From Gemmatimonadales bacterium (GTDB lineage Bacteria > Gemmatimonadota > Gemmatimonadetes > Gemmatimonadales > JACORV01), in the NCBI GenBank assembly GCA_030697825.1, contig JAUYOW010000272.1, positions 1 through 52,312 on the forward strand: a stretch of 52,312 nucleotides of DNA. The letters are read 5' to 3'. Each line of letters begins with the position of its first letter. Position 1 is the first letter of the stretch. The translations under genes and the position numbers were made by a program. Below, one piece after another: positions 7,937 to 20,855 of the stretch. A model generated the notes under the pieces. It searched no databases, was not told the DNA's origin, and was given only the letters and a program-made list of their open reading frames with translations.

Positions 7937-9988
7937 ATGCCACGCCGCGTCATCAGCGGCAACCCTTTGTGGCGGCGGATGTTACGGCTCAAGACGCTGT
8001 CCTGGGCGCCCTGGCGAGTGTGGGGCAGTAGCCCCGGTCTGGGGGGCCTGGCCGGTCAGGCCGAGTCAGCGGGCGCGGCTTTTGCCAGTTGGTTGATCGG
8101 CGTTTGGGAGGCGATGATCCCCTCGATGCAGGCTGCTTGGACAAGCTGGCGCGCGCTGTGGCGCGAAAACCCCCTGCGCAGTGCGCTAGGGAAACGGCTC
8201 CTCGCGTGGCTGCTCCTCCTCTCGCTCCTGCCCCTCATTCTCTCCAACGCCGTCGGCTACGTGGTGAGTGGCCGGATCATAGGGGGACTTGCCGAGCGCG
8301 ATCTCCGAGCCCTCACCACAGTGCAGGCGCACCATGTGCGCGACGTGCTGGAGCGGCTTTCGCTGGGACTCGAGTTGGCCGCCGGTGCCGACCGGCTGCT
8401 GGTCGCCAGCGCGGCGGCGCTGCGCGACTCGTCGGCGAGCCCGGTCGTTCTGAGCGGCGCGAGCGGACTTGCGGCGGAGGAATTGGACCGCCTGCGGGAG
8501 CAGCTCACGACCTTCAGCTCGCTCGCGCTGGTTCGACCCTCGGGCCGCGTCGTCGCTTCGTCGCCGCGGTTCGCGTCGGGGGTGCTGTGGCGCGATCCGG
8601 TGCTGGTGTCGCGCGCCGCCTCGCAGGAGCGGGCGTTCGCCGTAGGGCGGGGAGTCGAGCGACGGGAACCGTCGCTGGTCTTCGCCGTCGCCCTCCCCGC
8701 GCCGGACCCGGCGCCGCCCGCGGTGGTCATCGGGGTGATCGCCTTCGCCGACATCGGGTCGGCGCTGCAGATACCCGCCCGCCTGGCGGGCGTGGTCGAG
8801 GGTTTCGTGGTGGACGAGGCCGGACGGCCGGTCTTCGCGTCCGACCCGCGCGGGCCGATCGACTACGAACGTCCGCTCCCACAGTATCGCTCGCTCGCCG
8901 GAGGCGTGACGCGCTACCGTGACGGGGACGGGGACGAGGTGGTGGGCAGCCGCGACCGAGTTCCCGGGTATCCGCTGCAGTTCGTCAGTCAGGTGCCCGT
9001 CCGCGCGGCGCTGGGTGAACTGCGCTGGCTGCGTCAGCTCTCGGTGGTCGTCGAGGTGACGTTCGTGCTGGTTCTCGTCGCGGCGGCGTGGGTGGTCTCG
9101 GGCGGCATCGTGCGCCCGGTGTACCAACTCGTGGCGGCCGCCGAGCGCATCGGCCGGGGCGACCTCGGGGTGGCGGTGACCGTGACCCAAAGAGACGAGC
9201 TGGGCCAACTCGCGGAGCGCTTCAACGACATGGCGGCCCAGCTTCGGGAGTCGGCCATGCGGATTCGCGACCTGCACGCGGAACAGATGCGGCGCGCCGA
9301 GCAGTTGGCGACGGTGGGGGAGTTGGCGGCAGGCATCGCCCACGAGCTCAAGACGCCGCTGCTTGGCCTGAGCAGTGGGACGCAGCTCTTGAACCGGCAC
9401 CTCGATCCCGGGGACCGCGAGGGCCGACACCTCACCGGAGAGATGCTTCAGCGTATCCAGCGGATGGAGACGGCCATCCAGGACCTGCTGAACTATGCGC
9501 GGCCTTCGCCGGCGCGCCTGTCCCGGCTGGACCTGAACGCCATCGTCGAGCGCGCGCTTCGGTTGGTGGAGCCGCGGGCGGAGCACTCGGGGGTCCTGAT
9601 CCACCGGGACCTCGCCAGCGGTCTGCCGCACCTCCAGGTTGATCCGGAACAGATCGGGCAGGTGCTGGTCAATCTGGTGCTGAACGGCATAGAGGCGATG
9701 GTCGCCGGCGGCCACCTCGAGGTAGAGACGCGACGGACCGGCGCCGCGATCCAGGTCGTGGTGAACGACTCGGGCCCGGGGATCAGCCCGGCGGAGCGCG
9801 AGCGCGTGTTCCGGCCGTTCTACACTACCAAGCACACTGGCACGGGGCTCGGGCTCGCCATCGTCCGGCAGATTGTCGAGCGTCACGGCGGCGGCGTGTC
9901 GGTCGGCGAAGCGCCCGGGGGCGGGGCACAGTTCGTGGTGTCGCTGCCGACTGACGTGGGAGGCAATGCAGCCGGAGGTGCCGCATGA
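7937..9988 (+). CDS. Membrane sensor histidine kinase (NtrB/AtoS-like, HAMP domain)
   Basis: Sensor partner of the downstream sigma54 activator. The 683-residue protein has a long N-terminal stretch, a membrane helix at about 88-110, an extracytoplasmic sensor region of about 255 residues (dCache-like in size), a second helix at about 369-389 and a HAMP linker (IVRPVYQLVAAAERI). The H-box is GIAHELKTP with phospho-acceptor H469, followed by N-box VNLVLNGIEAM, G1 box NDSGPGIS and G2 box GTGLGLAI. The start is uncertain: the ATG at 7937 lacks a clear ribosome site, and internal ATGs near residues 60-64 would remove an odd non-membrane leader. Its stop overlaps the regulator start by 4 bp. The signal sensed is unknown; the flanking genes point to redox or extracellular acceptor state. 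Confidence 0.9.
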   Translation: MPRRVISGNPLWRRMLRLKTLSWAPWRVWGSSPGLGGLAGQAESAGAAFASWLIGVWEAMIPSMQAAWTSWRALWRENPLRSALGKRLLAWLLLLSLLPLILSNAVGYVVSGRIIGGLAERDLRALTTVQAHHVRDVLERLSLGLELAAGADRLLVASAAALRDSSASPVVLSGASGLAAEELDRLREQLTTFSSLALVRPSGRVVASSPRFASGVLWRDPVLVSRAASQERAFAVGRGVERREPSLVFAVALPAPDPAPPAVVIGVIAFADIGSALQIPARLAGVVEGFVVDEAGRPVFASDPRGPIDYERPLPQYRSLAGGVTRYRDGDGDEVVGSRDRVPGYPLQFVSQVPVRAALGELRWLRQLSVVVEVTFVLVLVAAAWVVSGGIVRPVYQLVAAAERIGRGDLGVAVTVTQRDELGQLAERFNDMAAQLRESAMRIRDLHAEQMRRAEQLATVGELAAGIAHELKTPLLGLSSGTQLLNRHLDPGDREGRHLTGEMLQRIQRMETAIQDLLNYARPSPARLSRLDLNAIVERALRLVEPRAEHSGVLIHRDLASGLPHLQVDPEQIGQVLVNLVLNGIEAMVAGGHLEVETRRTGAAIQVVVNDSGPGISPAERERVFRPFYTTKHTGTGLGLAIVRQIVERHGGGVSVGEAPGGGAQFVVSLPTDVGGNAAGGAA

Positions 9989-11370
9989 GAAGGCGACGCG
10001 AGCGAATCCTGGTCGTGGACGACGAGGAGCTGTTCCGGATCTGGCTCGGCGAGCAGCTGCGCGCGGCGGGCTTCGAGGTGTTCGTGGCGGGGTCGCGGCA
10101 GGACGCGGTGCGACTCGCGGCGCAGGAGGCGCCGGCGGTCGTGCTGCTGGACCTGAAGTTGCCCGATACACAGGGGCTGGCCGCCCTGGAACAGCTGCGG
10201 AAGGTCGATCAAGACATGACCGTCATAATCATGACGGCCTACGGCGAGGTGGAGACGGCGGTCGCGGCCGTGAAGGCGGGCGCCTACCAGTTCCTCCAGA
10301 AGCCGCTGTCGTTCGACCAGCTCTTGGTGACACTCGACAAGGCACTCGAGGCTGGGCAGCTGCGTCACCAGGTGGCCAGTCTGCGCGAGATGCACCAGTG
10401 GACCGCCCGGTCGGTCACGGTCATCGCCCGCTCGCCCGCGATGCGGGGGGTGATGCAGTGGGTCGAGAAAGTCGCCGCTGCCGACCCGGCCACGGTGCTG
10501 CTCCAGGGCGAGAGCGGCACGGGGAAGGATCTCATCGCGCGCGCGATCCACGAAAAGAGCCCGCGGCGCGACGAGGCGTTTGTCCAGGTGCCATGCACGG
10601 CGATCCCCGAGAACCTGATCGAGTCGGAGCTGTTCGGCCACGAGCGCGGCGCCTTTTCCGACGCGCGCGAGCGCAAGCGCGGGCTCCTCGAGCTCGCCGA
10701 CGGCGGCATCGTCCTGCTGGACGAGATCGGCGACGTCCCGCTGGGCGTCCAGGCGAAGCTGCTCAGCTTCATCGAGACGCGCACGTTCAGGCGCGTGGGC
10801 GGCCTGGCGGACCTCGAGGTCGACGTGCGGATCATCGCTGCCACCAACCGAGATCTGGCCGCCGCCGTGCGCGCGGAGGCGTTCCGGCCCGACCTCTTCT
10901 ACCGGATCAACGTGCTGCCCCAGACGCTCCCGACGCTCCGTGACCGACCCGACGACATCGAGCCCCTCGCCCTCCATTTCCTCGACAAGTTGAGCCGCGA
11001 ATTCCGTCGCTCCGCTCCGCGCATGACCCCCGAGGCCATCGCGTGCCTGCGGGAGTACGACTGGCCCGGCAACGCGCGTGAGTTGCGGAACGTGATCGAG
11101 CGCGTGCTCCTGTTGGAGGAAGGCCACGAGATCGTACCGGCGCAGCTGCCGGTCGAAGTGCAGCTCGGCGGCTCGTCGGCTGGTGTGGGCGTCGCCACGG
11201 GCGGCGTGATGGCCTTCCCGGCCGAGGGCGTGGACCTCGAGGAGCTGGAGCGGACGCTCATCGCGCAGGCGCTGCGCACCGCCGGCGGCAACAAGACCCG
11301 AGCCGCGCGCCTGCTGCGGCTGACCCGGGACACCTTACGCTACCGGCTGGAGAAGTACGGCATCGTGTAG
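9985..11370 (+). CDS. Sigma54-dependent response regulator (NtrC family) with GAFSDA loop
   Basis: Two-component activator of 461 residues. The receiver domain has the acidic pair D12/D13, phospho-acceptor D56 (LLDLKLPD) and K106. The AAA+ domain follows with Walker A GESGTGKD (175-182), sigma54-contact loop GAFSDA (222-227, against the usual GAFTGA), Walker B GIVLLDEIGD and the arginine-finger region. A Fis-type helix-turn-helix closes the protein (about 417-461, NKTRAARLLRLTRDTLRYRL). It overlaps the kinase gene by 4 bp. The palindrome just after its stop, repeated upstream of the second cytochrome/porin operon, is the obvious candidate binding site. The last 28 codons are duplicated at 15267. 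Confidence 0.95.
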   Translation: MRRRRERILVVDDEELFRIWLGEQLRAAGFEVFVAGSRQDAVRLAAQEAPAVVLLDLKLPDTQGLAALEQLRKVDQDMTVIIMTAYGEVETAVAAVKAGAYQFLQKPLSFDQLLVTLDKALEAGQLRHQVASLREMHQWTARSVTVIARSPAMRGVMQWVEKVAAADPATVLLQGESGTGKDLIARAIHEKSPRRDEAFVQVPCTAIPENLIESELFGHERGAFSDARERKRGLLELADGGIVLLDEIGDVPLGVQAKLLSFIETRTFRRVGGLADLEVDVRIIAATNRDLAAAVRAEAFRPDLFYRINVLPQTLPTLRDRPDDIEPLALHFLDKLSREFRRSAPRMTPEAIACLREYDWPGNARELRNVIERVLLLEEGHEIVPAQLPVEVQLGGSSAGVGVATGGVMAFPAEGVDLEELERTLIAQALRTAGGNKTRAARLLRLTRDTLRYRLEKYGIV

Positions 11371-11399
11371 CGCCGGGTGGGGCAAATGCCCCGGCGGCG
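11285..11399 (+). repeat. Source copy of a 115-bp direct repeat (regulator 3' end plus operator)
   Basis: Covers the last 28 codons of the sigma54 regulator, its stop and the palindrome. It is matched by 15267-15381 with only a handful of substitutions over roughly the first 105 bp, after which similarity fades. Confidence 0.85.
11379..11392. promoter_or_regulatory. Palindromic operator GGGGCA-AA-TGCCCC upstream of the mtrA-like operon
   Basis: A perfect 6-bp inverted repeat with a 2-bp centre, 8 bp after the regulator stop codon. Its first base lies 111 bp before the first base of the candidate sigma54 promoter, a normal distance for an NtrC-type enhancer site. The same motif with a TC centre is at 15361. 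Binding by the adjacent regulator is inferred. Confidence 0.7.
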
Positions 11400-11489
11400 C
11401 GGTATCTCACGCAGCTGGCGTGGAGCAACCCGCCGGTCCAGTGGCGCGCATTCCCAAGCCCTCCAACGTGTTGATACGCGGCGCCACCC

Positions 11490-11504
11490 TGGCCCGGGTA
11501 ATGC
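11490..11504 (+). promoter_or_regulatory. Candidate sigma54 (-24/-12) promoter for the mtrA-like operon
   Basis: TGGCCCGGGTAATGC places GG and GC at the invariant spacing and matches TGGCACG-N4-TTGC at most defining positions. It ends 61 bp before the ATG of the decaheme gene and follows a sigma54-type regulator gene. Confidence 0.6.
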
Positions 11505-11564: not shown

Positions 11565-12512
11565 ATGAGCGGGCGCTCCCGGTGCCTGTCCCGCCTCCGC
11601 GCAGTTGGCTTCGTGACTGCCCCCTTGCTCCTGCTCATCTCAGCCGGACGCCTGAGCGGCCAGGCCCCGGGAGCGCCTCCGGAGACGCGGGTTCCCCCGC
11701 CGGGGTACGTGGGGCAGGAGGTCTGCCAGGGCTGCCACCAGGACGCGGCCACCGCCTGGGAGGCGACCACCATGGGGAGAGTCCTGGCGCGCCGCCCTCG
11801 CAATGAGCTCGAGGGCAGAGCGTGCGAGGCATGTCATGGCCCGGGCGGAGACCACGTGAGGGCGGCAGGGGATAGGACGAAGATCTTCCGGTTCGGGAAG
11901 AACTCTCCCGCGTCCGTGGCGGAGCAGAACGATCGGTGCCTGCAATGCCACGAATCGGGCGCCCGCCAGCACTGGAGCGGCAGCATGCACGAGAGCCGGA
12001 ATCTCGCCTGCGTGGACTGCCACACGGTGATGACGTCCGTCTCTCCGGAGCGGCAGCTGGCGCGCGAGACCGTGGCGGAGGTCTGCTCCCAGTGTCACCT
12101 CCAGCGACGCGCCCAGGGACAGCTTTCCTCGCATATGCCGGTCCGGGAAGGGAGGATGACCTGCACGGATTGCCACAACCCTCACGGGACGGCGACGCCC
12201 AGCCTCCTGGTCGAGAACTCGGTTAACGAACTTTGCTACAGGTGTCATGCCGAGCGGCGGGGACCATTCCTCTGGGAGCACCCTCCGGTGACGGAGAACT
12301 GCGCCACCTGCCACGATCCGCACGGATCGATGAACACATACCTGCTGAGAGTTCGCGAGCCGCGGCTCTGCCAGCGGTGTCACATCGAGGCGCGCCACCC
12401 CACGACTCCGCAGGGCGAAACGGCGCGGTTCGTGTTCGACCGGTCGTGCACCAACTGCCACTCTCAGATCCACGGATCGAATCATCCATCGGGGATGCGC
12501 TTCCACCGGTGA
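11565..12512 (+). CDS. Decaheme c-type cytochrome, MtrA/PioA/DmsE-like
   Basis: Periplasmic decaheme cytochrome that in known systems is plugged into an outer-membrane barrel to carry electrons across the outer membrane. It has 315 residues, a signal peptide (hydrophobic 13-28) and ten CxxCH sites starting at C54, 87, 125, 149, 174, 200, 224, 246, 269 and 295, evenly spread as in MtrA (about 333 residues). It has a strong GGGAGG ribosome site and is immediately followed by an MtrB/PioB-type barrel, the diagnostic pairing. No outer-surface MtrC/OmcA-type decaheme gene is present in the window, so the arrangement resembles PioAB or DmsEF more than the full Mtr set. Direction of electron flow cannot be read from sequence. 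Confidence 0.9.
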   Translation: MSGRSRCLSRLRAVGFVTAPLLLLISAGRLSGQAPGAPPETRVPPPGYVGQEVCQGCHQDAATAWEATTMGRVLARRPRNELEGRACEACHGPGGDHVRAAGDRTKIFRFGKNSPASVAEQNDRCLQCHESGARQHWSGSMHESRNLACVDCHTVMTSVSPERQLARETVAEVCSQCHLQRRAQGQLSSHMPVREGRMTCTDCHNPHGTATPSLLVENSVNELCYRCHAERRGPFLWEHPPVTENCATCHDPHGSMNTYLLRVREPRLCQRCHIEARHPTTPQGETARFVFDRSCTNCHSQIHGSNHPSGMRFHR

Positions 12513-12569
12513 TGCGGAGATGACGCGCGGAATCGAGACGGAGCAGCACTCTTTCGGGAGACGGCGAAT

Positions 12570-14804
12570 ATGGTGACCATGCGCGTGAGGTGGGTTCACG
12601 GTGCCTTGGTGGCCCAACTCGGTCTCGGGCTGTTCGTCGCGACGGCACGGGCGCAGGGGCCGACGGCAAGCGGCCAGATCGAGTTCGGAGTGCGAACCCT
12701 CTGGGACAAGTTGGCGCGGTCATCGTCGAAGTTCTCGGAGTACGAGGCGATCCCGCGGGGGCTGTTCATCAGCCAGGCGACCGCCGGTCTGAACTGGGGC
12801 GCGACCGGGTACTACGTGACGCTTCGCGCGCGGGACGCGCTGGAGGGGGACCAGCAGGTCCGCCTGCGTGGTGGCCGCCATGGACGGTGGGAGTTCGGGC
12901 TCGAGTTCGACCGGCTCCCGCACGCCTTTTCGAACACCGGACGCTCCATCTACACCCAGACCGCACCGGGTGTCTTCCGCCTCCCGGACGACGTGCAGGA
13001 GCGGCTCAGGACGATCTCCACGACCGACATCGATCCCACGTTGGCGGGCCGCCAGATCGACACGGTGCGGCTTGGGGCGCTCGTGAATGGCCTGGCACGA
13101 CCCGTGGCCCTCTCGTTACGACGCGAGCGTGCTGCGGCGACGTTCCGGTACAACCCCGTGCCAAAGTGGGACATGAAGCTTCGATACAGCGAGGAGAACC
13201 AAGTTGGGACCCGGCCCTTCGGGGCCACCTTCTCCTTCAACCCCTCCGAACAGCCTGAACCGATCAACTACCGGACCCGGCAGTTCCAGGCAAACCTGCA
13301 ATGGTCCGACAGGGCCTGGACCGTGCAGCTGGGATACGCGGGCTCGTTCTTCCACAATCGCGTTAGCGCCCTGGTCTGGGACAACCCGTTCCGGGAAGCG
13401 GACGTCGCCGGGAACCCGGCCGCGGGCCAGATCGACATGTACCCGTCGAACAGGACGCATCAGGGCACGCTGACGGCGGCCGTCAGCAGGCTGCCGTTCG
13501 GATCCCGCGTGACGGTCACCGCCGCCTACGGCGTCATGCTGCAGGACGACTCGCTGCTGCCCTTCACGATCAACACGGCGATTACGACCGCTCCTGCTCT
13601 GCCCGCCGCCACCGCGTCGGGAAAATTGAGGACGCTGCTCCTGAGTACCACCGCGGTGAGCCGACCGGTCCGCGACCTGACGCTGACGTTCCGCTATCGC
13701 AGCTACGAACGCGACAACCAGACGCCGAGCCTCGTGTTCTCCGACTATGTGCGGACGGATCAGACTTTGGATACGACCAACCGGCGCAACCTCCCGGTCG
13801 GGTACACCCGGCAGAACGCGGGCGTGGAAGCCTCATGGCGGGTGCTTTCGCCGGTCTCCCTGAAGGCGGGATACGACTGGGAGGGTTGGGACAGGGTGCA
13901 TCGCGAGACACCCTCCACCAGCGAGCGCACCCTTGGCGGGGCGGTGAATGTGGACGGTGGCCGCGGGCTCTTCGTCCGGGCCTCGTTCCGTCGCTCCACT
14001 CGGACGGCACACGACTACGAGGCTGAGAGAGTGGCGGAGGAAGCCTTCCCCGCCGGAGAGCCGGGGCTTGGCCAGCTCGATGTGCTGCGCAAGTTCGATC
14101 AGGCCAGCCGGGAGCGAAGCCGGGCGGAACTCGTCGCCCGAGTCAGTCCGCTGGACAACCTCGACCTGTCGGCGAGCTACTCGCTGACCGACGACGACTA
14201 CAACGAGAGCGCGTACGGGATGCTCACGAGCCGGGGCGCGGGCCCGTCGCTCCAGGCGACGTACAGTCCCACCCCGCGCTTAACTTTGTTCGCCGAGTAC
14301 GCCCACGAGCAGAATACCATCAGCATGCGGTCGAGGCAGCGCACGCCCGCGACGGCCACGGCCCCGGTCAACGACAAGCCGGACAACGACTGGGTGAGCG
14401 ACGTGCGGGACCGCGCCAACATCTACTCCATGGGGCTCTCCGGCGAGCTGCTCCCTGCGCGGCTGCGCGCCGATCTGAGCTACAGTGTCTCCGACGGGAA
14501 CGGTCTGACACGGACCCGGACGCCGGGGACCCCGGACCTCGTCACCACCGCTAGGGACTATCCCCAGACTACCAGCAACCTCAGGACCGCCCGCGCCACG
14601 TTCACGTACGCCCTCGCTCGGCAGGTCGATCTGCGGTTCGCGTGGCGCTACTACCGGTACGACGAGGTTGACTACGCGCTGGACCCCATGTTGCCGTTCA
14701 TGGGCTTCTACGACGGCTCCTCGGCAGCGACCGTGTGGCTGGGAGCCACCCGACCGGGCCATCGGGCGCACGTAGCGGCGCTGAGCATGGCCTACAGGCT
14801 CTGA
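12570..14804 (+). CDS. MtrB/PioB-family outer-membrane beta-barrel associated with the decaheme cytochrome
   Basis: Barrel that sheathes the decaheme cytochrome in porin-cytochrome conduits. It has 744 residues, a signal peptide ending ATARAQG, then many alternating amphipathic strands (for example WEFGLEFDRLPHAFSNTGRS, typical of the MtrB family near the N-terminus). It closes with strands ending VAALSMAYRL, an aromatic-hydrophobic last strand suited to BAM insertion. Length is close to Shewanella MtrB (about 700). I do not see the N-terminal CxxC pair of Shewanella MtrB. It starts at ATG 12570 or at the ATG three codons later; a GGGAGA lies upstream. It is in one operon with the decaheme gene and a monoheme cytochrome. 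Confidence 0.88.
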   Translation: MVTMRVRWVHGALVAQLGLGLFVATARAQGPTASGQIEFGVRTLWDKLARSSSKFSEYEAIPRGLFISQATAGLNWGATGYYVTLRARDALEGDQQVRLRGGRHGRWEFGLEFDRLPHAFSNTGRSIYTQTAPGVFRLPDDVQERLRTISTTDIDPTLAGRQIDTVRLGALVNGLARPVALSLRRERAAATFRYNPVPKWDMKLRYSEENQVGTRPFGATFSFNPSEQPEPINYRTRQFQANLQWSDRAWTVQLGYAGSFFHNRVSALVWDNPFREADVAGNPAAGQIDMYPSNRTHQGTLTAAVSRLPFGSRVTVTAAYGVMLQDDSLLPFTINTAITTAPALPAATASGKLRTLLLSTTAVSRPVRDLTLTFRYRSYERDNQTPSLVFSDYVRTDQTLDTTNRRNLPVGYTRQNAGVEASWRVLSPVSLKAGYDWEGWDRVHRETPSTSERTLGGAVNVDGGRGLFVRASFRRSTRTAHDYEAERVAEEAFPAGEPGLGQLDVLRKFDQASRERSRAELVARVSPLDNLDLSASYSLTDDDYNESAYGMLTSRGAGPSLQATYSPTPRLTLFAEYAHEQNTISMRSRQRTPATATAPVNDKPDNDWVSDVRDRANIYSMGLSGELLPARLRADLSYSVSDGNGLTRTRTPGTPDLVTTARDYPQTTSNLRTARATFTYALARQVDLRFAWRYYRYDEVDYALDPMLPFMGFYDGSSAATVWLGATRPGHRAHVAALSMAYRL

Positions 14805-14821
14805 GCGTGCAGGGAGGTCCG

Positions 14822-15151
14822 GTGCGTGGATTGACGTTGTGCTCGCTGGTTGCGCTCGCCGCATTGCTCGGAGCGCACCGGGGACAGACGCCCGCCACGG
14901 GGCGGGATGTCTATCGCACACGCTGCGCGATGTGCCACGGCCCGGAGGGCCGCGGCGACGGACCGGCCGGTGCTGCGCTGACCCCTCGAGCGACGAACCT
15001 GACTGTCGGCGCGGACCTGACGGCGGTTTCGGATTCGGTGGTGAGGGCGATCGTCACGAGCGGGCGGCGCGGCATGCCGGCGTTCGGCCGGATGCTGACG
15101 CGCGCACAAACCGATTCCGTCGTGGCGTACTTGCGGACGCTGCGGCACTGA
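14822..15151 (+). CDS. Small monoheme cytochrome c
   Basis: Periplasmic electron carrier of 109 residues: signal peptide RGLTLCSLVALAALLGAHRG, one CxxCH (CAMCH, in CAMCHGPEGRGDGPAG) and a distal Met in GMPAFGRML, a class I cytochrome c layout. The GTG at 14822 is preferred over the upstream in-frame ATG because AGGGAGG stands 5 bp before it and the signal peptide then begins correctly; the longer form would run inside the barrel gene. It is the third gene of the porin-cytochrome operon. It is clearly paralogous to the C-terminal half of the diheme protein at 16611, the equivalent carrier in the second operon. Confidence 0.88.
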   Translation: MRGLTLCSLVALAALLGAHRGQTPATGRDVYRTRCAMCHGPEGRGDGPAGAALTPRATNLTVGADLTAVSDSVVRAIVTSGRRGMPAFGRMLTRAQTDSVVAYLRTLRH

Positions 15152-15167: not shown

Positions 15168-15305
15168 GTGCCGCGGCGAAGAATCCCCTTCCGGCTCCTT
15201 GTTTGGCTCGCCGCCGGGTGCGCGGCAAGCCTGCTCCCCGGGGGCTGCGGTGCGGACGCGCGACAAGCGGCAACAAGACCCGAGCCGCGCGCCTGCTGCG
15301 GCTGA
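15168..15305 (+). pseudogene. Truncated lipoprotein gene fused to the duplicated regulator tail
   Basis: A GTG with a GGCGGGG upstream starts a 45-codon frame, MPRRRIPFRLLVWLAAGCAA then SLLPGGCGAD. This is a convincing bacterial lipoprotein signal with LPGGC as lipobox. From codon 34 the DNA becomes the duplicated 3' end of the response regulator in another frame and a stop follows quickly. I read it as the surviving 5' end of a lipoprotein gene cut by a deletion or recombination. No function can be assigned; it could also be an accidental frame. Confidence 0.4.
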
Positions 15306-15381
15306 CCCGGGATACCTTGCGCTACCGGCTGGAGAAGTACGGCATCGGATAGCGGCCGGTGGGGCATCTGCCCCGGTCCGC
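15267..15381 (+). repeat. Duplicated 3' end of the sigma54 regulator gene plus operator (pseudogene fragment)
   Basis: Near-identical to 11285-11399. Read in the original frame it encodes GNKTRAARLLRLTRDTLRYR and ends LEKYGIG then a stop, the DNA-recognition part of the Fis-type helix-turn-helix. The two internal coding differences (GAC to GAT, TTA to TTG) are synonymous; the last codon differs (Val to Gly). There is no start codon, receiver or AAA+ part. It looks like the remnant of a second, once complete regulator gene that stood in front of the porin operon. Confidence 0.8.
15361..15374. promoter_or_regulatory. Palindromic operator GGGGCA-TC-TGCCCC upstream of the porin operon
   Basis: Same perfect arms as the site at 11379, immediately after the regulator-tail remnant. 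Its start lies 122 bp upstream of the start of the candidate sigma54 element at 15483, one helical turn more than the 111 bp seen in the first operon. Confidence 0.7.
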
Positions 15382-15482
15382 CAGCGGCATCTCACCCGGC
15401 CCGGCGGTGCGCCGGATGGCACCACGTTCCGCAACTTCATACCCAGTAACGAGTACGAGGCGCAACGCACCCGCGGCCCGTT

Positions 15483-15497
15483 TGGTGCTAGGGAAGC
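15483..15497 (+). promoter_or_regulatory. Candidate sigma54 promoter for the porin/cytochrome operon
   Basis: TGGTGCTAGGGAAGC, followed by A, keeps GG and GC at the required spacing but matches the rest of the consensus less well than the site at 11490. It ends 78 bp before the porin ATG. A second look-alike beginning at 15418 (TGGCACC) has GC one base too far away. Confidence 0.4.
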
Positions 15498-15575: not shown

Positions 15576-16598
15576 ATGCGAAAGACGGTCATGTGGACGG
15601 CGATCGCCCTGAGCGGTATCGCCGCGCCGCCGGTGTTGGCGCAGGGACTCATCGTCAGCGGATACGCGACCGAGGAGCTCGAGGTGAATCTCACCAAGCC
15701 GAGAGCGAACACGTTCGACGCCCAGAACTTCAACCTGATCTTCCTGGGGCAGCTTGGCGGCGACGTGTTTGCCGCGGCGGAAGTCGAGTACGAGCACGGG
15801 GGCGAGGAGATCGAGTTCGAGTACGGCTACCTGGCGTTCACCCGGTGGTCGTTCGCGAACATCGTCGCCGGCAAGTTCCTGGTGCCGTTCGGACGCTTCA
15901 ACGCCGACCTGCACCCGGCGTGGATCAGCCGGATCCCGGGTCGGCCGCTGCCGAACGATGCCATCCTTCCGGTGGGCTACAGCGACGTCGGCGTGATGGT
16001 ACGCGGCGCCGCCGCGGCGGGCACCGCCGGGCGCTTCACGTACGACGTGTGGGGCGTGAACGGCCTCGCCGGGGACGCGGGCTCGGGCATCCGCGGCATG
16101 CGCGACAACAACGTGGACGCGGACAACAACATCGCGCTTGGCGCGAGGGCCGGGTTCGTCAGCACCATGGGCTTCGACGTGGGTGCCTCGTTGTACAACG
16201 GCGTGTACTGCGACTCCGCGTGCAGCAGCAGCAGCGGGGACCTCAACCTCCGCATTCTCGGGTTCGACGCCACCTACCGCCGCGGCCTGATGGAGGTTCG
16301 CGGCGAGTGGATGCAGGCCGCGCAGGACACGTCCCTGACGGCCGACGTAACCAAGAGCGGCTTCTACGTGCAGGGGTCGTACCTTTTCGTGCCGACGGTC
16401 GAGGCCGCCTTGCGGTTGTCTCAGGTGGACTTCCCGGATGCTGCCAACGACAAGCGGCGTATCAGCCTGGGCTTCAGCCTGTATCCGTCTGATGCGGCTG
16501 CGGTGCGGATTTTCTACAACATCAACAGGCATTTCGGCAGCGGCGTCACGGACCCCAAGGACGACTCGTTCATCGTGCAGTTCACGGTGGGCTTCTAG
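15576..16598 (+). CDS. Outer-membrane porin, phosphate-selective porin O/P-like
   Basis: Beta-barrel of 340 residues with signal peptide MRKTVMWTAIALSGIAAPPV ending at LAQG, then strands such as YLAFTRWSFANIVAGKFLVP and FGRF. The form 'AGKFLVPFGRFN' is typical of OprO/OprP-type porins. It ends in FIVQFTVGF, a C-terminal Phe that fits BAM recognition. A very strong AAGGAGG ribosome site precedes the ATG. It heads an operon with two diheme cytochromes and stands behind the shared operator. The substrate is unknown. A role in passing anions, metals or a soluble electron donor or acceptor alongside the MtrAB-like conduit is only inferred from regulation. Confidence 0.8.
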   Translation: MRKTVMWTAIALSGIAAPPVLAQGLIVSGYATEELEVNLTKPRANTFDAQNFNLIFLGQLGGDVFAAAEVEYEHGGEEIEFEYGYLAFTRWSFANIVAGKFLVPFGRFNADLHPAWISRIPGRPLPNDAILPVGYSDVGVMVRGAAAAGTAGRFTYDVWGVNGLAGDAGSGIRGMRDNNVDADNNIALGARAGFVSTMGFDVGASLYNGVYCDSACSSSSGDLNLRILGFDATYRRGLMEVRGEWMQAAQDTSLTADVTKSGFYVQGSYLFVPTVEAALRLSQVDFPDAANDKRRISLGFSLYPSDAAAVRIFYNINRHFGSGVTDPKDDSFIVQFTVGF

Positions 16599-16610
16599 GA
16601 GGAGCGCGAC

Positions 16611-17261
16611 ATGAACACAACTTGCAAGCGCACGGCGCCGTTCGTCGCCGTAACGTCCCTCGCGGCGCTTCTGCTCCTGCCTCCGCGGCTCGCAGCCCAG
16701 GCGGCGAGTGGCCCCGAGGTGTGGGCGGCCAACTGCGGGAGCTGCCACCGGCTTCGCTCCCTGGAGACGTACACTGCATCGCAGTGGAACACCATTGCCA
16801 CCCACATGGGATTGGTGGCACGCCTCACGGGGGCCGAAACGCGCGCGGTGCGCGAGTTTCTGGTGAATTCGGCGCGGGCCCGGGCGGCGGCCGAGACGGC
16901 ACGCCTGCTGGCCCCGGACCTCGCGGGTGTCCCGGCCACCGGAACATCGGGCGGCGCCCAAGGCGCCGCGGTGATGACCCGCGAGAGTGGAAATATCGAT
17001 CCGGTGGCGGGGCGGGACATCTACCGTGCCAGCTGTGCGGCGTGCCACGGCCCGGAGGGGCGCGGAAACGGGCCGGCTGCGGTGGCGTTGAACCCCCGGC
17101 CGACAGACTTCACCAACGCGGCACAGCGCCAGACGACGACGGACTCCGCGATCGGCGATGTGATCGAGCATGGTCGTCGCACTATGCCGGCGTTCGGGCG
17201 GACGCTGACGAGCACGCAGATCGACTCCCTGGTAGCGCACCTGAAGACGTTCCGGCGCTAG
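16611..17261 (+). CDS. Diheme cytochrome c
   Basis: Periplasmic electron carrier of 216 residues with a signal peptide (hydrophobic about 10-24, then RLAAQAASG) and two domains. The first has CGSCH with a downstream W-NTIATHM segment. The second has CAACHGPEGRGNGPAA and distal Met in TMPAFGRTL. The second domain is closely similar to the monoheme protein at 14822, showing duplication between the two operons. An AGGAGG ribosome site stands 6 bp before the ATG, 12 bp after the porin stop. The first domain resembles the W-V-M type domains of the lipoprotein at 19522. Confidence 0.87.
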   Translation: MNTTCKRTAPFVAVTSLAALLLLPPRLAAQAASGPEVWAANCGSCHRLRSLETYTASQWNTIATHMGLVARLTGAETRAVREFLVNSARARAAAETARLLAPDLAGVPATGTSGGAQGAAVMTRESGNIDPVAGRDIYRASCAACHGPEGRGNGPAAVALNPRPTDFTNAAQRQTTTDSAIGDVIEHGRRTMPAFGRTLTSTQIDSLVAHLKTFRR

Positions 17262-17286
17262 CCAGCCGGGGGAGGAGGGATGCAGC

Positions 17287-18024
17287 GTGTCGCGCCGGCT
17301 CGGAGTGGGAGCCGCGCTCCTCGTCTGCGTCGTCGCGTGCCGCGAGAATCCGCCGCCCCGGCCCGCAGCCGAGGTGGCGGTGTCCGCGCGTCCCGGCGCA
17401 GCAGCCGCGTTCGGGACGGCCCTCGACTCCGTCCCCTCGGTGGCGCAGCGGCCCCTGACCCCGCTGCAACTGGAGGGGCAGCAGGCCTATAACACGTTGT
17501 GCTGGACCTGCCACGGGCTCTACGGGCACGGTGACGGTCCCGCGGCCCGGGGATTCGCGGACCCCTTGCCGGATCTGGCGAGGGTCGCCCGACTCCGGTC
17601 GGACGCCGAGATCATGGAACGGATGTCCAGGCCGCGTGCCCCGGGAGCGGGAGGCCAGGCGGAGCCCCTCTGGCACGCGCTCGAGCCCGAGGCAAAGCGC
17701 GCCGCCGTGGCGTATCTGCGGAGCTTCGCCCCGACCGGATCCCAGGGAAACCCTGCCGCCGGCCGCCTCGTTTACGCCACCTACTGCGTACACTGCCACG
17801 GCGTACGTGGCGCGGGGGACGGCAGGCTGGCACCCGCGCTGGGGAGCCGCCGCGCCAGTCTTCTCCATCTCACGCTCCACGGACATGAAGCACAGGTGCT
17901 TGCGACCATCCGGCGCGGTTCTATCCGGCACGACGCATTCATGCCTGAGTGGGGGCGCGCCTTCACCGATCCGCAGTTATGGGACGTCGTTGCCTACCTT
18001 CAGGTGCTTCAAGCCACCCACTGA
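17287..18024 (+). CDS. Diheme cytochrome c lipoprotein
   Basis: Membrane-tethered cytochrome of 245 residues. It begins at a GTG (SRRLGVGAALLVCVVACREN), where VVAC followed by RE is a good lipobox, placing the mature Cys at residue 18. Two CxxCH sites (CWTCHGLYGHGDGPA and CVHCHGVRGAGDG) define two class I domains, the second with Met in FMPEWGRAF as likely ligand. A GGGGGAGG-type ribosome site precedes it, 25 bp after the previous cytochrome gene. It is the last gene of the porin operon and converges on glpK 5 bp away. Partner proteins are inferred to be the other periplasmic carriers of this locus. Confidence 0.86.
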   Translation: MSRRLGVGAALLVCVVACRENPPPRPAAEVAVSARPGAAAAFGTALDSVPSVAQRPLTPLQLEGQQAYNTLCWTCHGLYGHGDGPAARGFADPLPDLARVARLRSDAEIMERMSRPRAPGAGGQAEPLWHALEPEAKRAAVAYLRSFAPTGSQGNPAAGRLVYATYCVHCHGVRGAGDGRLAPALGSRRASLLHLTLHGHEAQVLATIRRGSIRHDAFMPEWGRAFTDPQLWDVVAYLQVLQATH

Positions 18025-20393: not shown

Positions 20394-20399
20394 ACACAG

Positions 20400-20473
20400 T
20401 CGGGACGGCGGGATTTGAACCCGCGACCCCCTGAACCCCATTCAGGTGCGCTACCGGACTGCGCTACGTCCCG
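20400..20473 (-). tRNA. tRNA-Pro (anticodon GGG)
   Basis: The minus strand folds as a cloverleaf. The acceptor is CGGGACG/CGTCCCG with A as discriminator base. The anticodon stem is CCTGA/TCAGG around loop ATGGGGT (anticodon GGG, reading CCC/CCU), and the T-arm contains GGTTCAAATCC. CCA is not encoded. Truncated copies of its 5' half follow at 20616-20881. Confidence 0.93.
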
Positions 20474-20835
20474 TCGATCCTGCAACCAGACCGGTACTTC
20501 GTGGGGTCGCGGGTTCCCGCGATCCCCCTGATTCGATGCCCCGAGCAACGCGAGGGGCGAGAACGGCTGCGGTCGCCGAGTGAGCGACCCGTCGCGAACC
20601 CGGCGACTGCGGCACACCCCATTCAGGTGCGCTACCGGACTGCGCTACGTCTCGTCGATCCTGCAACCAGACCGGTACTTCGTGGGGTCGCGGGTTCCCG
20701 CGATCCCCCTGATTCGATGCCCCGAGCAACGCGAGGGGCGAGAACGGCTGCGGTCGCCGGGTGAGCGACCCGTCGCGAACCCGGCGACTGCGGCACACCC
20801 CATTCAGGTGCGCTACCGGACTGCGCTACGTCCCG
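20474..20835. repeat. Two tandem 181-bp repeats, each carrying a 5' half of tRNA-Pro
   Basis: Units 20474-20654 and 20655-20835 are almost identical. Each ends (plus-strand order) with a 39-bp copy of the tRNA-Pro 5' half, from the acceptor strand through the anticodon (20616-20654 and 20797-20835). The first copy has one mismatch in the acceptor (CTCG for CCCG). The remaining 142 bp contain strong inverted repeats such as GGGGTCGCGGG against CCCGCGATCCCC, like a REP element. Open frames in this stretch are artefacts. Confidence 0.85.
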
Positions 20836-20855
20836 TAAACCGTCTTGAAGCCGCA

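Follow-up and report, generated by a model that had tools for sequence, protein, structure and literature searches.

Why should the last codons of a response regulator gene, together with its operator, occur a second time directly upstream of another operon? The question arises from the stretch of 52,312 nucleotides studied here (the window), in which a sequence-only reading had described such a copy and proposed that it is what remains of a second regulator.

The two copies form an ungapped direct repeat (11285-11394 versus 15267-15376) in which 102 of 110 positions (93%) are identical. Their homology reaches beyond this block to 11411 and 15396, respectively, with 3 gap bases.

11285..11411, + strand: left repeat copy (R1), the regulator's last 28 codons, predicted UAS and leader start, from the alignment of the copies
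15267..15396, + strand: right repeat copy (R2), 28 apparently untranslated regulator codons, predicted UAS and probable native leader start, from the alignment and a leader match to G346, a genome of the same genus

When the whole genome was searched for 119 bp taken from the left copy, two places only were returned (E 7.6e-57 and 3.4e-41), a similarity that chance does not explain, and with this query no third copy was found in the genome, the next best match having an E value of 0.015. The duplication of the regulator's 3′ end and operator, with one copy directly upstream of the porin operon that starts at 15576, is thus confirmed. The 28 codons translate to GGNKTRAARLLRLTRDTLRYRLEKYGIV in the left copy and to SGNKTRAARLLRLTRDTLRYRLEKYGIG in the right copy, each followed by a stop. 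The earlier statement that the internal differences are synonymous holds for the two internal ones (GAC/GAT and TTA/TTG), but the last codon carries two substitutions that exchange Val for Gly.

An assembly artefact, with loci from separate places joined through the repeat, was a concern of the sequence-only reading as well, and it gains some plausibility from the fact that this is a draft genome of 333 contigs whose relatives break near the same genes. The copies nevertheless differ at 8 of 110 positions and by indels, their longest exact run is 46 bp, which is below typical read length, and both operons are preceded by a correctly spaced UAS and promoter site of their own (see below). We consider a misjoined assembly very improbable.

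The left copy is the end of an intact regulator gene that follows its kinase gene.

7937..9988, + strand: sensor histidine kinase (HAMP, HisKA, HATPase_c), from domain matches, with the same synteny in G394, G346 and G087
9985..11370, + strand: intact sigma54-dependent response regulator (receiver, AAA+, Fis-type HTH), from domain matches

The regulator exceeds the cut-offs of PF00072, PF00158 and PF02954, is AtoC-like while staying under the equivalog cut-off for AtoC, and is 77% identical to the regulator of G087, a genome of the same family. Sigma54 itself is encoded in the genome (PF04552, 210 bits). A contig search with the regulator gave distant regulators only (44-50% identity, mostly from Acidobacteria) and did not help with synteny, since its search patterns are widespread in the family.

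Two operons follow. Operon 1 (11565-15151) lies between the repeat copies and operon 2 (15576-18024) lies behind the right copy.

11565..12512, + strand: DmsE/MtrA-family decaheme c-type cytochrome with 10 CxxCH motifs (TIGR03508, 275 bits, cut-off 192)
12570..14804, + strand: MtrB/PioB-family outer-membrane porin (TIGR03509, 346 bits, cut-off 240; PF11854, 395 bits)
14822..15151, + strand: small monoheme cytochrome c (CYC1), from a domain search, with its own signal peptide
15168..15266, + strand: first ~33 codons of a lipoprotein-cytochrome gene, cut by the right repeat copy; matches the beginning of the intact gene in G346
15576..16598, + strand: 340-aa porin-like protein with no Pfam or NCBIfam match; 72% identical in G346, where it stands directly behind the regulator
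16611..17261, + strand: cytochrome c (CYC2) of operon 2, from a domain search and the synteny of relatives
17287..18024, + strand: lipoprotein-like diheme cytochrome c of operon 2, from a domain search and the synteny of relatives

The pairing of an MtrA/DmsE-type decaheme cytochrome with an MtrB/PioB porin is that of known, horizontally transferred Mtr/Pio/Mto clusters (PMC8805035, PMC10654088). By analogy, operon 1, in which no MtrC was found, presumably serves electron transfer across the outer membrane.

Both repeat copies contain the palindrome GGGGCANNTGCCCC, and each is followed by a site of the -24/-12 type, for which the pattern GG-N10-GC was used.

11379..11392, no strand: palindrome GGGGCAAATGCCCC, predicted UAS of operon 1, from genome search and shuffles, with presumed regulator binding
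11490..11504, + strand: -24/-12-type promoter site TGGCCCGGGTAATGC of operon 1, a consensus match only
15361..15374, no strand: palindrome GGGGCATCTGCCCC, predicted UAS of operon 2, from genome search and shuffles, with presumed regulator binding
15474..15488, + strand: -24/-12-type promoter site CGGCCCGTTTGGTGC of operon 2, a consensus match to which the sites of G346 and G087 align

In the 3.37 Mb of the genome there are exactly two occurrences of the palindrome, compared with 0 of a reversed control and 0.01 expected per window from shuffles. All substitutions between the two copies within it fall on the two central bases. It precedes the -24/-12-type site by 111 bp in R1 and by 113 bp in R2. 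Behind the regulator of G346, the palindrome GGGGCAAACGCCCC is placed 112 bp from such a site, and behind that of G087 the palindrome GGGGGAAATCCCCC is placed 110 bp from one. An Mtr-type operon in G313, a genome from another family of the class, has two palindromes upstream, the nearer one 114 bp from a promoter-like site. The spacing thus stays within 110-114 bp in five leaders, and a pair of palindrome and site at such a distance arose in 0 of 20,000 shuffles of either window leader. The fact that this geometry recurs in three relatives suggests that the palindrome is very probably the enhancer (UAS) to which the regulator would bind. An operator and a -24/-12-type site thus precede each operon, and, as the sequence-only reading had anticipated, the one surviving regulator presumably serves both. 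A larger regulon finds no counterpart in the genome: palindromes with one mismatch are at background (14 sites versus 18 in the control), and 0 of the 13 that were checked have a promoter site at the right distance.

This arrangement agrees with NtrC/AtoC-type systems of sigma54 enhancer-binding proteins (EBPs) in that a response regulator with AAA+ and Fis-type HTH domains has a target operon adjoining its gene, and in that a palindrome precedes a -24/-12-type promoter by about 110 bp. In the Desulfovibrio sigma54 regulome, likewise, UASs are located at least 100 bp upstream of sigma54 promoters and EBP genes lie beside their target operons (PMC4641369). The window differs from such systems in that the site lies a few bases past the regulator's stop codon and has been duplicated along with the gene's last codons, which gives a second target operon.

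The order of events can be approached through relatives, for which we compared three genomes of the genus and four others of the family, some of them incomplete. One contig of G087 carries the order MOB-CYT7-kinase-regulator-cytochrome-lipoprotein cytochrome, with one regulator. In G346, a contig starts inside the open frame of the regulator, whose last 73 codons are followed by UAS, promoter and the genes for porin, cytochrome and lipoprotein cytochrome; its kinase is on another contig with the matching synteny MOB-CYT7-kinase, which leaves a gap of ~1.6 kb to the regulator end. G394 covers the left side of the locus only. Two kinase/regulator pairs, as might be sought in relatives if a second regulator had existed, were found at this locus in none of them, G087 having a single pair and G346 one regulator as assembled.

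Neither the Mtr porin nor the decaheme protein was found in G346 or G087, an absence that is read from incomplete genomes (89%, 71%) and hence is not proof. The nearest porin and decaheme protein come from another family of the class, represented by G315 (66% and 83% identity, respectively) and G313 (54% and 69%). In trees, the MtrA and MtrB proteins of the window group with those of G315 and G313 (support 94/91 and 98/98), whereas its regulator groups with that of G087 (100/100) and those of G313 and G315 pair elsewhere. As judged from these sequences, the regulator branches vertically and MtrA/MtrB branch inside another family. The G315 contig is short, ends inside MtrA and is possibly misbinned, since its small cytochrome and that of G346 are 89% alike; the conflict stands on G313 alone when G315 is set aside. 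Together with the absence from relatives, the trees suggest that operon 1 is the later arrival and was probably acquired horizontally. Such conflict with the host's other genes is also a feature of horizontally transferred Mtr/Pio/Mto clusters, one documented case of which entered Gemmatimonadetes (PMC8805035).

The right leader of the window matches that of G346 (z 6.6), whereas the left leader does so weakly (z 1.9), which suggests that R2 carries the native operator of the porin operon. Past the palindrome, the similarity of the two window leaders to each other is at the edge of chance (z 2.3). The earlier proposal of a second regulator that was duplicated and later deleted is therefore not supported, in that the later arrival is probably the operon between the copies and the operator on the right is probably native.

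With a probability of roughly 60%, we favour the reading that a foreign Mtr-type operon was inserted behind the regulator in one event, which duplicated the enhancer and left the right copy as its scar, so that this copy is not the relic of a second regulator. The ancestral order would have been kinase, regulator, UAS, promoter, porin and cytochromes. A fragment with the decaheme cytochrome, the MtrB-type porin, the small cytochrome and the start of a lipoprotein-cytochrome gene would then have entered behind the regulator. One of its ends would have been joined by homology in the region of the regulator's 3′ end and UAS, and at the other end the lipoprotein gene would have been joined to the regulator's codon -28 at the sequence GCGGCA. 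Since this second join is upstream of the region of homology, the insertion would have doubled the last 28 codons together with the UAS. In the resulting arrangement, each operon would have an enhancer of its own, 111-113 bp upstream of the promoter, through which the phosphorylated regulator would activate it.

The left junction of R2 fits this sequence of events. Positions 15168..15266 align with the start of the G346 lipoprotein gene with a score of 68, compared with 24 in shuffles, of which 0 of 500 scored as high. The six bases GCGGCA (15267-15272) are common to the regulator's codon -28 and, in frame, to the G346 lipoprotein gene, and likely represent a 6-nt microhomology. One homologous end and one microhomology end account in a single event, with no need of a second regulator, for the doubling of the codons and the UAS, for the truncation of the lipoprotein gene and for the native leader on the right. 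Homology-facilitated illegitimate recombination proceeds in this manner, with one end homologous, the other joined at a few bases of microhomology, and foreign DNA added. As judged from one genome, the window may be a case of it, with the repeat marking one end and GCGGCA the opposite one, although recipient sequence would here have been duplicated rather than deleted. Transposition with target-site duplication was considered and rejected, given that known target-site duplications are far shorter than 127-130 bp.

Some observations count against the single insertion or bear on its details. G346 is broken between kinase and regulator. Among the relatives examined, neither a genome at an intermediate stage of the insertion nor a donor whose Mtr operon is preceded by a regulator tail was seen, and the contig of G315 stops inside MtrA. 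Nor does a simple one-time duplication predict that the coding part of the repeat is more alike than the non-coding part (4/83 versus 6/43 differences, Fisher p 0.09). This pattern would be expected from gene conversion or from a breakpoint at the stop codon, and recency, gene conversion or such a breakpoint would each suffice to explain the lower coding divergence.

The junction can also be read as the outcome of a deletion. Integration or tandem duplication would first have produced two full regulators, and a deletion from GCGGCA to GCGGCA would then have left 28 codons and the UAS. A microhomology junction beside a truncated lipoprotein gene is the expected trace of such a deletion, and G346 has the regulator itself in front of the porin. 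Indeed, a transient second regulator, brought in and deleted to the same microhomology, would leave an identical sequence. This history nevertheless takes one extra step, and among the three genomes of the genus and four others of the family, some of them incomplete, those that have the locus carry one regulator, which in G346 is the only one at this place. Nor do the synonymous differences lend it support. When G346 and G087 serve as outgroups, GAC to GAT is the only one of these changes assigned to the right copy, TTA being derived in the intact gene; random substitutions in the 28 codons are synonymous in 30% of cases, and in 40% if they are transitions. One informative change against such a chance rate is no evidence for translation, so that the earlier suggestion of a fragment once translated and under selection is not borne out. 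We regard a deleted second regulator as possible though doubtful.

A further alternative is a tandem duplication of the resident locus, from the regulator end to the lipoprotein cytochrome, with later replacement of the first porin by foreign MtrA-MtrB. The small cytochromes of both operons are 73-74% alike in DNA, and in both a lipoprotein gene once stood behind the small cytochrome. The operon-1 cytochrome, however, has its own signal peptide, occupies the same place behind MtrB in G315, and has diverged from its partner far more than the repeat copies have from each other. Such a duplication is improbable.

The two palindromes of the Mtr-type operon in G313 (L222, 9360-11479) are of the same type, are 43 bp apart and are accompanied by the -24/-12-type site. 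This operon lies far from its regulator gene, which is on another contig, and the regulon therefore seems older than the insertion in the window. A more general speculation, which we consider unlikely, is that regulator 3′ ends, with their HTH codons and enhancer, are recurrent docking sites at which incoming operons that already share the regulon recombine, join in one step and leave a scar of tail and UAS. In a more extreme version, the scar would also make a recognition-helix peptide of 45-50 residues that competes for the UAS. The regulator fragment's reading frame (15203-15352) stays open downstream of the small cytochrome's stop codon and includes an in-frame TTG (15203) and GTG (15218); no clear ribosome-binding site was seen for it.

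Under single insertion, the window provides a readable case in which a horizontally acquired electron-transfer operon would have been wired into a two-component regulon in one step, by way of a duplicated enhancer behind the regulator. What sets it apart from other Mtr/Pio/Mto clusters is this position directly behind a resident regulator, with the enhancer duplicated. As genome evolution it is unusual, yet built from known parts, and a literature search for a comparable regulator tail copied together with its operator found none. The two-operon regulon and the binding site are predictions that can be tested directly.

Several minor features were seen in the same regions. The small cytochrome behind MtrB in G315 (L163, 3068-3340) and the end of the G346 operon-2 cytochrome are 89% identical in DNA, and this identity climbs toward the 3′ end, as would follow from exchange between operon types or from a misbinned contig. 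Between the cytochrome and lipoprotein-cytochrome genes of G346 is a MITE-like inverted-repeat element of 76 bp (L126, 2128-2203; TGTCCCGAGTCAGA ... TCTGACTCGGGACA), a 14-mer of which is also present in G065 (L228, at 3810); the G315 contig C404 breaks at the place homologous to this element. Further downstream in the window, at 20399-20836, a 181-bp direct repeat is present in two full copies (99% identity), followed by the beginning of a third. It overlaps a tRNA-Pro(GGG) gene (20399-20473), whose end is repeated in tandem.
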